Shown in pieces: positions 1 to 27,237 of a DNA stretch of 50,170 bases (position 1 is the first letter of the stretch; each line of letters starts with the position of its first letter). The notes beneath the pieces were generated by a model. That model worked only from the letters and a program-made list of their open reading frames with translations, searched no databases and was not told the origin of the DNA. The stretch covers positions 1 to 50,170 of the forward strand of contig NZ_JAFCIY020000008.1 in assembly GCF_020194955.2 (NCBI RefSeq), written 5' to 3'. The translations under genes were made by a program, and so were the position numbers. The stretch comes from Desulfuromonas sp. CSMB_57. Its GTDB lineage: Bacteria; Desulfobacterota; Desulfuromonadia; Desulfuromonadales; Syntrophotaleaceae.

Positions 1-60
1 AATGAAAAGTGTACCACCCCGGAACCGTGGTATTCCTCCTTGAGGAAAGGAGGGATGCCG

Positions 61-8864: not shown

Positions 8865-10721
8865 TTGCGCGTCGCGAAGCTGACCCTGGTCTCCATCCAT
8901 CTCGAACCGTCCCCCCGCGCCGTGCCCCTGGCCGCCGGCCTGCTGAGCGCCGTGTTGAGGGAAGCCCATCCGGGCCGCATCGAAACCCGCCTGGTGGACG
9001 GTTTTCTGCAGCAGTCGGAGGGTGAACTGGTGGCGGCCATCCTGGCCGAGGAGCCCGATTGGGTGGGGTTTTCCATGTATGTCTGGAACCGCCACCGCAT
9101 GCAGGCCGTGGCCCGGCGGCTGAAACGGCAGCGACCGGAGCTGATCCTGTTTGCCGGCGGCCCGGAGCCGACGGCGGCGCCGGACGGCCTGGTGGCTCCG
9201 GACGGGCTCGATTTCATCCTGCCGGGGGAAGGGGAGCGGGTCATCGCCGAGGCCCTGGGCATCCTGCTGGAGGGCGGCGCGCCGGCGACCATCGCCGGGC
9301 GCATCACGCCCGGTCCGATTCCGGATCTGAGCGGGCTGCCGTCGCCCTACCTGGACGGCAGCCTGCCGCCGGAGCAGCTGCCCGGCATCGTCTGGGAACT
9401 GTCCCGCGGCTGCCCCTTCCGGTGCGATTTCTGCTATGAATCGCGCGGCAGTCGGGGCGTGCGGCGCTTTCCCCGCCAACGCCTGGAGGCGGAACTGCGC
9501 CGCTTCGTATCCGCCGGCATCGAGGAGATTTTCGTCCTCGATCCGACCTTCAACTTTGAGCCGGAACAGGCCAAGGAGCTGCTGCGCCTGTTCCGGGATC
9601 TGGCGCCCGGCATCCGCTTCAGCATCGAAATTCGCGCCGAGTATGTGGACCGGGACATGGCGGAGCTGTTCGCGGCCGTCCACTGCTCCCTGCAGATTGG
9701 CCTGCAGAGCGCCGATCCGGCGGTTTTGGCCAACATCCACCGCAGCCTCGACCGGGAGGATTTCGAAAACCGCCTCCTGCTGCTGCACGAGGCCGGCGTC
9801 AGCTACGGCCTGGACCTGATTTACGGCCTGCCCGGCGACACCCTGGGCGGGTTTCTGGACAGCCTGGATTTCGCCCTGGCGCTGCTGCCCAACCATCTGG
9901 ATATTTTCCCTCTGGCGGTTCTGCCGGGGACCCGGCTGGCGGAAACGGCAGCCGGCTTCGGTCTGGAATACGAGCCCCAACAGCCTTATCGGCTGCTCGC
10001 CTCGCCGACCTTCAGCGCCGCCGACCTGGCCGAGGCCGACCGGCTGGCCCGGGCCTGCGACCTGTTCTACAACCGGGGCCGCGCCGTGCCCTGGTTCGGG
10101 CTGGTGCTGGAGAACCTGGCCGTGGCGCCGTCCGTCCTGCTGCGTCGCCTGGCGGACTGGCTGGATGCCGCCGGCGCCTGGGCGGACACGGACCTGACGG
10201 CCCTGCAGCAGCGGTTCGTCAGCGACCGGTTCCTGGCCGAGGAACGCCCCGCCGTGGCTGCCGTGGCCGCCGATGTCATCGCTTATTTCGGCCACTCCGC
10301 CGCCCTGCTCAGCGGCGATTGCGGTTTGGATGGGGAGCCGCCGGCGCCGAGCGGCCTGCGCCTCCATCCCGACAGCCGCTGGGTGGACTTCAACCATGAC
10401 CCTTCGCTGTTGTTGGAGAACCTCGAAATCGGCGTCACGGATTTCCAGATTCTGACCTGCCTGCTGCCGCCGGAGCCCTGCCGGGCCCTGCTGTACCTGT
10501 GCCGGGGCGAGGTGTCCCTGGGGGTGTTCGCCGACGAGGAAAGGGAACTGCTGGAAGCCATCGCCGAAGGGCGCTGCCAGGGGGCGCCGACGGGGCCGCT
10601 GGGCGAGTTTTTCGAGGCCGCGGTCGCGGAAGGGATTATTGATGATAACTATTCAGCATCGTGGAGCAGGGGCTCGCGCCGCCCACCCCGAGGGCCGCAT
10701 GAACCCATCCCTGGGGCTTGA
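8865..10721 (+). CDS. B12-binding-domain radical SAM protein (DUF4080-like)
   Basis: This 618-aa protein has an N-terminal cobalamin-binding Rossmann-like region (about 1-150, with VGFSMYVWNRHRM and LFAGGPEPTAAPDG) and a radical SAM core. The core carries the [4Fe-4S] motif CPFRCDFC (C183, C187, C190). The C-terminal region resembles DUF4080 proteins. The reaction is unknown; relatives are often methyltransferases. The start is TTG 8865, immediately after the recQ stop. The last 25 or so residues (from SASWSRGS) are translated from a dispersed palindromic repeat that begins at 10646, so the natural C-terminus has been replaced or extended. The catalytic core is unaffected. Confidence 0.85.
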   Translation: MRVAKLTLVSIHLEPSPRAVPLAAGLLSAVLREAHPGRIETRLVDGFLQQSEGELVAAILAEEPDWVGFSMYVWNRHRMQAVARRLKRQRPELILFAGGPEPTAAPDGLVAPDGLDFILPGEGERVIAEALGILLEGGAPATIAGRITPGPIPDLSGLPSPYLDGSLPPEQLPGIVWELSRGCPFRCDFCYESRGSRGVRRFPRQRLEAELRRFVSAGIEEIFVLDPTFNFEPEQAKELLRLFRDLAPGIRFSIEIRAEYVDRDMAELFAAVHCSLQIGLQSADPAVLANIHRSLDREDFENRLLLLHEAGVSYGLDLIYGLPGDTLGGFLDSLDFALALLPNHLDIFPLAVLPGTRLAETAAGFGLEYEPQQPYRLLASPTFSAADLAEADRLARACDLFYNRGRAVPWFGLVLENLAVAPSVLLRRLADWLDAAGAWADTDLTALQQRFVSDRFLAEERPAVAAVAADVIAYFGHSAALLSGDCGLDGEPPAPSGLRLHPDSRWVDFNHDPSLLLENLEIGVTDFQILTCLLPPEPCRALLYLCRGEVSLGVFADEERELLEAIAEGRCQGAPTGPLGEFFEAAVAEGIIDDNYSASWSRGSRRPPRGPHEPIPGA

Positions 10722-10786
10722 CGGTTGCCATCCGGGCGCCAGACACCCTCGGGGAGGGCGCCCCGAGCCCCGGTGCTGAATGGTTA
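10646..10786. repeat. Palindromic intergenic repeat, copy A
   Basis: This 141-bp element has terminal inverted repeats TAACTATTCAGCATCG (10646-10661) and CGGTGCTGAATGGTTA (10771-10786), 14 of 16 bases paired. The inner arms CCCACCCCGAGGG (10682-10694) and CCCTCGGGGAGGG (10746-10758) also pair. The central part, from about CCGCATGAACCCATCC to GGGCGCCAGACA, is nearly identical in copies B and C. It overlaps the end of the radical SAM gene. It resembles a MITE or REP-type element with no coding capacity. Confidence 0.85.
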
Positions 10787-12201: not shown

Positions 12202-12343
12202 AAACTATTCAGCATCGTAGAGCAGGGGCTCGCGCCGCCCACCCCGAGGACCGCATGAACCCATCCCTGGGGCTTGACGGTTGCCATCCGGGCGCCAGAC
12301 ACCCTCGGGGAGGGTGCCCCGATCCCCTGTGCTGAACAGTTAC
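12202..12343. repeat. Palindromic intergenic repeat, copy B
   Basis: This copy is almost identical to copy A at 10646-10786, including the tips (AAACTATTCAGCATCG and TGTGCTGAACAGTTAC) and the central block. It differs at one inner-stem base (GAGGA instead of GAGGG) and in the outer right arm (GATCCCC instead of GAGCCCC), both of which cost one pair. It lies between the lytic transglycosylase start and the metallophosphoesterase stop. Confidence 0.85.
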
Positions 12344-25577: not shown

Positions 25578-25659
25578 AGATAGACTTTTCCCCGGGCCGC
25601 CGCGCCATTGGCGCGGCGGCCCGTCTGGTTTTATATCGTCAGGCTTCGTGATGAGTGTC

Positions 25660-25800
25660 TTTACAAGCAGCGGTGGAGAAGGGCCTCGCGTCCCCCCCAC
25701 CGAGGGCCGCATGAACCCATCCCTGGGGCTTGGCCGGCGCCATCCGGGCGCCAGACACCCTCGGTGGGGGGGCCCCGAGACCCTTTGCCGAACGGTTGCA
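25660..25800. repeat. Palindromic intergenic repeat, copy C
   Basis: The central block (GCATGAACCCATCCCTGGGG to GGGCGCCAGACACCCTCGG) is nearly identical to copies A and B, but both stem arms differ. CCCCCCCACCGAGGG pairs perfectly with CCCTCGGTGGGGGGG. The pair corresponding to C-G in copy A is A-T here, a compensatory change. The outer tips (about 25660-25680 and 25785-25800) are more diverged. It lies between the DUF4177 gene and the trpS 3' end. Confidence 0.82.
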
Positions 25801-25807
25801 GGTCTTT

Positions 25808-26773
25808 TCAATAGGCCAGGCCGGTTTTCTTGCGCACCTTGCGCAGGGTCTTGGCGGCGACGTAACGGGCCTTCTGGGCGCCGTCGGCGAGGATGCGGCG
25901 CACACCTTCCGGGTCGGCCAGCAATTCCGTGCGGCGGGCGGTGAAGGGCGCGAAATAGTCCCGCACCGTCACGAACAGTTCCTCCTTGACCTCCCCATAT
26001 CCCAGCCCCCCTGCCACATAGCGGGTGCGCAGGTCCTTTTCCTGCTCCTTGTCGAGAAACAGACGAAAGATGTTGAAGACGTTGCAGCGTTCCGGATCCT
26101 TCGGATCCTCCACCGGCGTCGGATCGGTGACGATGCGCATGATCTGTTTGCGCAGGGACTTTTCGTCCTGGAACAGGTCGATGGTATTCTTGTAGCTTTT
26201 GCTCATCTTCTGTCCGTCCAGACCGGGGACCGTCGCCACTTCGTCATCGATGTCCGGTTCCGGTATCGCGAAAAGCTCCCCATACTCGTTGTTGACCTTG
26301 ATGGCGATGTCGCGGGCCACCTCCAGATGCTGCTTCTGATCCTTGCCGACGGGCACCAGTTCGGACTGAAACAGCAGGATGTCCGCCGCCATCAGCACCG
26401 GATAGGCGAACAGTCCGTGGTTGGGGGCGATGCCCTTGGCGACCTTGTCCTTGTAACTGTGGCAGCGCTCCAGCAGGCCCATGGGTGTGAAATTGGACAG
26501 TACCCAGGCCAATTCCTGCACTTCCGGCACATCGGACTGGACCCAGAACAGGCTCCGTTCCGGGTCGAGGCCCAGGGCCAGGAAATTGGCGGCGGCTTCC
26601 AGGGTGCCCTTGGCCAGGGACTTGCCGTCGGGTACGCTGGTCATGGCATGGTAGTTGGCGATGAAACAGAACAACTCCTGGTGCTCCTGGTAGTCGATCA
26701 TCTTTTTCATCATGCCGAAATAGTTGCCCAGGTGCAGGGCGCCGGAGGGCTGGATGCCGGACAGAACGCGCAT
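25808..26773 (-). CDS. trpS: Tryptophanyl-tRNA synthetase
   Basis: This 321-aa class Ic synthetase charges tRNA-Trp. The HIGH-type motif is PSGALHLGNY (9-18) and the second signature is KMSKS (189-193). TSVPDG, the AADILLFQSELVPVGKDQKQH stretch and VPGLDGQKMSKS are typical of TrpS. Length is normal. ATG 26773 is preceded by GAGGA. It follows an attenuator with its own promoter, so expression probably responds to charged tRNA-Trp rather than only reading through from lon. Confidence 0.96.
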   Translation of the reverse strand: MRVLSGIQPSGALHLGNYFGMMKKMIDYQEHQELFCFIANYHAMTSVPDGKSLAKGTLEAAANFLALGLDPERSLFWVQSDVPEVQELAWVLSNFTPMGLLERCHSYKDKVAKGIAPNHGLFAYPVLMAADILLFQSELVPVGKDQKQHLEVARDIAIKVNNEYGELFAIPEPDIDDEVATVPGLDGQKMSKSYKNTIDLFQDEKSLRKQIMRIVTDPTPVEDPKDPERCNVFNIFRLFLDKEQEKDLRTRYVAGGLGYGEVKEELFVTVRDYFAPFTARRTELLADPEGVRRILADGAQKARYVAAKTLRKVRKKTGLAY

Positions 26774-26792
26774 GGTCGAATCCTCGTCGTGG

Positions 26793-26829
26793 AAAATAAA
26801 AAAGCCGCGGTCCAGGGGGCCGCGGCTTT
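26793..26829 (-). terminator. Intrinsic terminator of the trpS attenuator
   Basis: On the minus strand AAAGCCGCGG (26829-26820), loop CCCCCTGGA and CCGCGGCTTT (26810-26801) form a perfect 10-bp stem followed by TTTATTTT. It ends 20 bases before the trpS start codon. The left half can instead pair with GGTCCGCGG at 26852-26844, the antiterminator. Confidence 0.85.
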
Positions 26830-26844
26830 GGGTTGTTCAGGTTC

Positions 26845-26864
26845 CGCGGACCGTCAGGTCCGCG
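26845..26864 (-). promoter_or_regulatory. Hairpin 1:2 of the trpS attenuator with leader stop codon in the loop
   Basis: CGCGGACC (26864-26857) pairs with GGTCCGCG (26852-26845) around the loop TGAC, which contains the leader stop TGA (26856-26854). The second arm extended by one base (26852-26844) also complements CCGCGGCC (26825-26818) in the terminator, with one bulged U. The two structures are mutually exclusive. Confidence 0.75.
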
Positions 26865-26964
26865 CTGCCCATGGAGAGACACTGGCATGCGAACCGGAGA
26901 TGGATTCGGACCAGCGCCACCAGCGACGGGCAAGCAGCATGCAGGGGATCATGAAGGTTTCCAT
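26854..26964 (-). CDS. Trp-rich leader peptide of trpS
   Basis: This 36-codon ORF on the minus strand begins METFMIPCMLLARRWWRW and ends SPWAART. Trp codons TGG are at positions 15, 16, 18 and 32. Trp32 (26871-26869) lies four bases before arm 1 of the attenuator hairpin, where a stalled ribosome would mask it. ATG 26964 has no good ribosome site and may be nearly leaderless given the promoter position. ATG at codon 5, with GGAAA upstream, is an alternative start. The ORF arrangement is seen directly; its regulatory role follows from the classical trp attenuation model and is inferred. Confidence 0.7.
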   Translation of the reverse strand: METFMIPCMLLARRWWRWSESISGSHASVSPWAART

Positions 26965-26972
26965 AAGCGCCA

Positions 26973-27001
26973 AACCTAGCAGCTCGACAGCTTTTCGTCA
27001 A
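26973..27001 (-). promoter_or_regulatory. Candidate promoter of the trpS leader
   Basis: On the minus strand TTGACG (27001-26996) and TAGGTT (26978-26973) are 17 bases apart. The predicted start is near 26966-26964, at or next to the first ATG of the leader peptide. Confidence 0.5.
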
Positions 27002-27009
27002 TGGTGAAA

Positions 27010-27237
27010 TCAGTCCCCGGTGCCGGCCGGCTGCAGCAGGCTGGCCATCTGCAGCAGCTGCGAGAGCTGGATGCCGCTGTCCTGAAGAATGCCGAGAAAC
27101 ACGGGGAACAGTTGCAGCAAAAAGCCGCTGTCCTGCATGGCCTCCCGGGCCAGGCCGGGCAGGGTTTCGATGATGAAGGCCTGCTTCTCCTCGGTGCTGA
27201 GGGACTCCAGGGCGGTTTTCAGTTCTTGTACGGTCAT
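27010..27237 (-). CDS. Small helical hypothetical protein between lon and trpS
   Basis: This 75-aa protein is predicted to be mostly helical, with a hydrophobic run in the middle (SGFLLQLFPVFLGILQDSG) that is amphipathic rather than a clear membrane helix. AAGGAGG lies about 13 bases before ATG 27237, a little far. It lies 69 bases downstream of lon on the same strand and just upstream of the trpS promoter. I do not recognise the family. Confidence 0.55.
   Translation of the reverse strand: MTVQELKTALESLSTEEKQAFIIETLPGLAREAMQDSGFLLQLFPVFLGILQDSGIQLSQLLQMASLLQPAGTGD

Follow-up and report, generated by a model that had tools for sequence, protein, structure and literature searches.

A probable tryptophan-sensing leader-peptide attenuator upstream of trpS in Desulfuromonadales

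The trpL leader of the Escherichia coli trp operon combines tandem Trp codons with alternative hairpins and an intrinsic terminator, and the attenuator of the his operon has six arms, with the pairings A:B, C:D and E:F set against B:C and D:E. Experimental work reportedly exists on trpRS1 of Streptomyces coelicolor. A candidate attenuator is described upstream of trpS2 in S. avermitilis (PMC1262725), and the trpL2-trpS transcript of S. lividans is leaderless by RNA-seq, with trpL2 being credited with one Trp codon and no U tract (PMC8079986). Ribosome profiling in Caulobacter crescentus revealed a translated small ORF upstream of trpS, for which attenuation was suggested (PMC4117421). Leaderless trpL has been reported for Sinorhizobium (PMC7298713) as well as Streptomyces (PMC8079986), and the leader RNA of S. 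meliloti trpL begins at its ATG (PMC7298713). No description of such an attenuator was found for the bacterial group considered here in the literature searched; the survey by Lopatovskaya et al. (2010) may bear on this point.

The window analysed here, a stretch of 50,170 nucleotides from Desulfuromonas sp. CSMB_57, carries trpS at positions 25808–26773 of the minus strand, on which all elements of the device described below also lie. The gene encodes a tryptophan--tRNA ligase of 321 aa (TIGR00233, scoring 306.6 bits with the cut-off at 176.75; PF00579). The interval between a 75-aa ORF and trpS holds, in the direction of the minus strand, first a promoter and a 36-codon ORF and then two hairpins followed by a terminator. 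The 75-aa ORF itself (27010–27237, minus strand) is situated between lon and the trpS promoter and has no Pfam match. Taken together, comparison and structure prediction indicate that the element is most likely a Trp-sensing, ribosome-mediated transcription attenuator of trpS, a reading to which we assign a probability of about 0.85. The first-pass annotation of this DNA had proposed a Trp-leader attenuator of this kind, a proposal supported by the finding that promoter, leader, Trp core and terminator are conserved across the order; all of its coordinates were confirmed when the sequence was read again.

As in the Streptomyces trpS2/trpL2 attenuators, a Trp-coding leader and hairpins are found upstream of trpS. 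Unlike trpL2 of S. lividans, the present element has tandem Trp codons, six arms and an intrinsic terminator with a U tract, and it belongs to a different phylum. A small leader ORF is likewise found on the trpS mRNA of C. crescentus. Tandem Trp codons, alternative hairpins and an intrinsic terminator are shared with the trpL attenuators (E. coli trp and Sinorhizobium trpLE(G)), from which it differs in that the target is trpS and not biosynthesis. The alternating-arm topology resembles that of the his attenuator, whereas the sensed amino acid and the target are different. The kind of device is thus known and its principle is not new; what is new is the lineage and the layout. The RNA appears not to have been catalogued yet, no Rfam family having been matched at threshold.

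The promoter (26973–27001) consists of TTGACG (27001–26996) and TAGGTT (26978–26973) separated by 17 nt, with TGC just 5' of the -10 box (extended -10). The pattern TTGACGN{14,15}TGNTAGNTT has its sole match in the whole genome at this place. A looser form, TTGACN-(13..15)-TGNTANNNT, is present upstream of the leader in all 35 loci in which a leader was found (see below). In 34 of these the first ATG comes 7–10 nt 3' of the -10 box, and in 33 it is in frame with the Trp pair; the exceptions are one locus with a spacing of 17 nt (L043) and one in which the ATG is out of frame and opens the sequence MKKVFA (L038). The leader ORF of the window, METFMIPCMLLARRWWRWSESISGSHASVSPWAART, runs from the ATG at 26964, 8 nt behind the -10 box, to the TGA at 26854. 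Since the distance from a -10 box to the transcription start is usually ~7 nt, the transcript would be expected to have its 5' end at the leader ATG or a few bases upstream. Pairing with the anti-Shine-Dalgarno sequence in the region 20–4 nt before the leader ATGs has a median of +1.0 kcal/mol and reaches -5 in none of the 35 loci; a Shine-Dalgarno sequence of the leader ORF is absent in 34 of them, the remaining locus (L047) having GAGG directly at the leader ATG (-6.6). At the trpS starts of the same loci the corresponding duplex has a median energy of -6.6 kcal/mol, compared with -2.2 for random 17-mers, and in the window the ribosome-binding region of trpS (GAGG) occupies 26774–26792. The leader ORF is therefore probably leaderless, as judged from ATG spacing and the missing Shine-Dalgarno sequence in 34 of 35 loci each. 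What had been offered as a guess, a nearly leaderless leader, gains support from this comparison.

In order to follow the element among relatives, the TrpRS of the window was searched in 136 genomes of the order, of which 126 yielded matches. Upstream DNA was obtained from 110 loci and measured 300 nt or more in 106 (L046, L050, L056 and L065 were shorter). Two genomes with full-length TrpRS (G068, G078), eight with partial or diverged matches (G048, G071, G073, G087, G093, G124, G126, G127) and those whose only matches had E values of ~1e-5 to 1e-7 were left out of this sample. Named close relatives of the locus belong to Desulfuromonadales; the TrpRS of one, Pelobacter sp. UBA6812, is 86% identical to that of the window. 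An ORF with TGGTGG no more than 420 nt from trpS occurs at 35 of the 106 loci (mean 3.0 and maximum 7 in shuffled sequences) and is absent from the other 71. The strict form, defined as an ATG 6–11 nt behind TTGACN-(13..15)-TGNTANNNT and in frame with TGGTGG, was found in 33 of the 106 upstream regions, whereas 100 dinucleotide-shuffled versions of the set contained no case. Families with a leader number 12 of 21 by the loose form and 11 by the strict one.

The leader peptides have WWRW, WWWR or close variants as a common core and differ elsewhere. In the window, where Trp is encoded at codons 15, 16, 18 and 32, this core corresponds to codons 15–18 (Trp-Trp-Arg-Trp, 26911–26922), the predicted conserved stall site. 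Two leaders (L043 and L038) are decayed or out of frame. In L038 (genome G103), where the leader is out of frame with the Trp codons, a long inverted repeat was also seen in the fold between the attenuator terminator and trpS. Codon 32 (26869–26871) is matched by nothing in the other 34 leaders: it lies 51 nt behind the Trp pair, a distance that never exceeds 12 nt for the final Trp codon of those leaders. The leader stop is likewise displaced, at WW+66 in the window as opposed to WW+51 at most in the other 34, and in the alignment with L003 the window leader extends past the stop of its nearest relatives (TAA in L003). By reading on to WW+66 the leader acquires Trp32, and its stop comes to fall in the loop of hairpin 3:4. 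Of the Trp codons in the original model, then, the core Trp15-16-18 is kept in relatives, whereas Trp32, to which general stalling had been ascribed, recurs in none; a stop codon placed in the loop of a hairpin is likewise peculiar to the window genome among those compared, the other leaders stopping earlier. The predicted sensor is thereby corrected from Trp32 to Trp15-16-18.

A six-arm device with the Trp codons in arm 1 is most likely, in which the pairings 1:2, 3:4 and 5:6 (the terminator) alternate with 2:3 and 4:5 (the antiterminator). Arm 1 (26901–26922) comprises the Trp codons and the bases that follow them. Arm 2 (26879–26897; consensus CGGUUCGCGCGCC) pairs with arm 1 in the folds, and its segment GGUUCGC (26895–26889) can pair with arm 3. 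This hairpin of the Trp15–18 codons with 26897–26879 had been overlooked in the first-pass annotation, the arm set of which was incomplete; the conserved core would act through arms 1 and 2. The 8-bp hairpin, the alternative pairing and the perfect 10-bp terminator with its U tract that it did contain are all present. Arm 3, CGCGGACC (26864–26857), forms hairpin 3:4 with GGUCCGCG (26852–26845) across the loop UGAC, within which the UGA stop is located. Arm 4, GGUCCGCGG (26852–26844), can instead pair with CCGCGGCC (26825–26818) in arm 5, giving eight pairs with one U bulged in the fold. Arm 5, AAAGCCGCGGCC (26818–26829), is the 5' arm of the terminator and arm 6, GACCGCGGCUUU (26801–26812), its 3' arm; the 10-bp stem is made of 26829–26820 and 26810–26801, and the rest of the U tract (26793–26800) leaves 19 nt to the trpS ATG at 26773. 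An intrinsic terminator is present in all 35 leader loci, its 5' arm beginning 73–103 nt behind the Trp pair. The 181-nt region as a whole folds at -77.4 kcal/mol (z = -3.6).

The two sets of pairings, 1:2, 3:4 and 5:6 (set one) and 2:3 and 4:5 (set two), were compared on an alignment of all 35 loci (A1) and on one of 18 of them (A2), for which a covariance model (R1) was also built. On A2, 91.6% of the cells in set one and 95.6% of those in set two are standard pairs, against 27–47% with the partners slid; on A1 the figures are 84.4% and 83.8%, respectively. Covariation clearly supports set one on the 35-sequence alignment: 61 cells were changed on both sides, compared with 22.0 (sd 3.4) in shuffles (0/500), and the covariation score was 0.239 compared with 0.150 when shuffled (0/500). 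Two other measures on A1 were weakly raised or not raised at all (double-change pairs, 28/500; further pair types, 254/500), and the signal on A2 is weaker (score, 12/500; double-change pairs, 196/500). For set two, no pair showed double-sided change and covariation did not exceed that of shuffles on either alignment (A1, score 0.120 against a shuffled mean of 0.139, 490/500 as high; A2, 407/500). The expectation that covariation would reveal 2:3 and 4:5 was consequently dropped; of the competing stems put forward earlier, those of set one gain covariation support on A1, whereas the antiterminator is without it. In a register-free strand-swap test, in which arms were paired between different families (L043 and L044 were left out), the native combination was better for 1:2, 2:3, 3:4 and 5:6 (0/500 as good in each case) and borderline for 4:5 (36/500), the controls giving 481/500 for 1:3, 328/500 for 3:5 and a likewise low 21/500 for 2:4; such tests are inflated by shared ancestry.

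When the whole leader was folded at equilibrium with a ribosome at various codons, the terminator won nearly always (median ~1.0), the exceptions being a few sequences (L017, L016 and partly L047). Equilibrium folding of the complete leader was accordingly discarded as evidence of a switch, of which it shows none. The result is in keeping with a different view of the locus, namely a plain strong promoter followed by a partial terminator, with the Trp ORF incidental and trpS held at a constant, reduced level; this view also draws on the same promoter type being present in 26 of 72 loci that have no tandem Trp ORF (at 40–126 nt from trpS in 21 of them), from which it follows that trpS can dispense with the cassette. 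It does not account for the in-frame Trp core, whose position with respect to promoter and terminator is constant in 11 families, with no case in the 100 shuffled sets, and we regard this view as highly improbable.

Because the terminator wins at equilibrium once arm 6 is present, a switch in the proposed attenuator must be kinetic, and nascent RNAs ending in arm 5 were folded instead for 33 loci (L043 and L038 were left out). In these calculations arm 5 was tied up at a mean of 0.83 with the ribosome stalled at the first Trp codon, so that arm 1 is covered, and at 0.48 with arm 2 covered. The difference of 0.35 was positive in 32 of the 33 loci, compared with 0.04 (maximum 0.10) in 20 sets with shuffled arms. 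With no ribosome the mean was 0.68, the stall value being higher in 25 of 33, and the two states are not well separated in the model. Four loci (L038, L044, L021 and L016) fit the scan of ribosome-edge positions poorly. For the window the values were 0.87 (stall), 0.39 (arm 2 covered) and 0.76 (no ribosome); a ribosome at Trp32 (edge WW+64) again gave 0.87, and one near the stop (edge WW+76) gave 0.28.

We infer the following course of events, from transcription start and translation through stalling and switching to the response to tryptophan. The attenuator would sense charged tRNA-Trp and control trpS. The transcript would begin at the leader ATG or a few bases away, and a ribosome would enter at its 5' end to begin the peptide. 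When charged tRNA-Trp is scarce, the ribosome would stall at Trp15–18 and cover arm 1, leaving arm 2 free for arm 3, so that arm 4 could pair with arm 5; the terminator 5:6 would then come too late and polymerase would enter trpS. With plentiful Trp the ribosome would advance and cover arm 2, hairpins 3:4 and/or 5:6 would form, and transcription would stop before trpS. In the window genome, where the leader stop comes late, the advancing ribosome would cover arms 3 and 4 as well, and a stall at Trp32 would likewise free arm 4.

The first-pass model relied on this last step by itself: a four-part attenuator whose arm 4 is released when a ribosome halted at Trp32 covers arm 3. Every part that it needs is present in the window, and arm 5 is tied up at 0.87 at WW+64. 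It leaves the conserved Trp core, arm 1 and arm 2 unexplained, lacks a counterpart of Trp32 in the 34 other leaders and has Trp15–18 being reached first by the ribosome; we consider it very improbable. Within the six-arm attenuator, Trp32 may be an added, local stall site, because a stall there would, in the folding model, still favour antitermination. The window genome may have obtained a second Trp checkpoint through loss of the ancestral stop. Combined with the start of the leader, this leads to a more far-reaching and rather doubtful proposal, that of a distinct lineage-restricted attenuator in which promoter spacing fixes the ATG at the transcript start, a ribosome loads onto the exposed 5' end in time with polymerase, and the window genome, having gained Trp32 by stop loss, has two stall sites acting on different arms.

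In the genome of the window R1 had one strong match (99.4 bits; the next had 29.0). Among 277 genomes of the class, strict filters left 27 matches of at least 44 bits, all just upstream of trpS and all within the order; 18 of these are loci from which the model was built and 9 are independent of it. The model also detected the element in three genomes outside the locus sample (G073, G124 and G127). On 79 named trpS loci and 9 loci of the class, R1 gave five matches above 40 bits, every one of them from a Desulfuromonadales or Desulfuromonas record. Matches below ~40 bits included antisense copies of the same places and others elsewhere in the genomes, and R1 was rejected as a finder of further targets; the weak matches elsewhere are tentatively read as terminator hairpins. 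The trpS linkage of all 27 strong matches bears on the idea that termination here yields a short stable RNA or peptide acting in trans, like peTrpL/rnTrpL of Sinorhizobium, with trpS control being secondary. Action in trans is possible for attenuator leader RNAs, which can have the ATG at their very start (PMC7298713), and the RNA here would be ~165 nt long. Besides the linkage, the poor conservation of the peptide outside the Trp core, as expected for a sensor in cis, makes a role in trans extremely unlikely.

A structured, terminator-bearing leader of an aminoacyl-tRNA synthetase gene might also be a T-box or riboswitch that binds a tRNA or ligand, and not a sensor that works through the ribosome. 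Neither a T-box nor any other Rfam family was found at threshold in the window, and at lax settings there was no T-box in the element; the six sRNA families that appeared at those settings were far below threshold and were taken as chance. With the Trp codon cluster sitting at the switching arm, we give a binding element next to no credence. That the trp operon might share the attenuator was considered as well and rejected, no tandem-Trp ORF being found in the gap that separates the L17-like from the trpE-like gene in the genome of the window, the only one inspected in this respect.

Outside the order, 60 genomes were chosen from 141 of the class, and TrpRS was found in 59, with 36–42% identity among the best matches listed. 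In the best 30 of these 59, the promoter type was present upstream of trpS in none, and a loose W-cluster ORF without the promoter was present in eight. The TrpRS proteins of the other orders of the class (L232–L261) are only ~40% identical to that of the window order, while those of Desulfobulbaceae and other distant groups are 60–67% identical to it; because of this discrepancy, replacement of trpS by transfer is possible. Within the order, two genomes (G120 and G040) have a single-Trp ORF at the position of the tandem-Trp leader. In a tree of 106 loci (261 nt of trpS), leader presence changes 12 times, compared with a mean of 29 when shuffled, and at least three changes are forced by well-supported branches, the tree being too weak to tell gain from loss. 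This suggests that the leader has been gained or lost repeatedly. Three loci with no Trp pair, L025 (G105), L014 (G104) and L055 (G135), have the promoter followed by an ATG at a distance of 8 nt, together with a different short ORF near trpS, e.g. MQPAAADNRGVFIDTERCNH.

If the proposed reading is true, leader-peptide attenuation would amount to tRNA-charging control of an essential synthetase gene in Desulfuromonadales. The loci would form, on a single promoter, a natural series that ranges from intact through reduced (single-Trp) to absent attenuators, and would allow a test of how leaderless translation begins early enough for attenuation.

Downstream of trpS, the window contains a dispersed palindromic repeat of ~130 bp (25660–25800) with 28-nt inverted-repeat arms (25679–25706 and 25758–25785). 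The genome has 39 matches to it, and further copies in the window are located at 10661–10785 and 12217–12341. An inverted repeat with perfect 15-nt arms 1 nt apart (25593–25623) lies just beyond the dispersed repeat on its downstream side.
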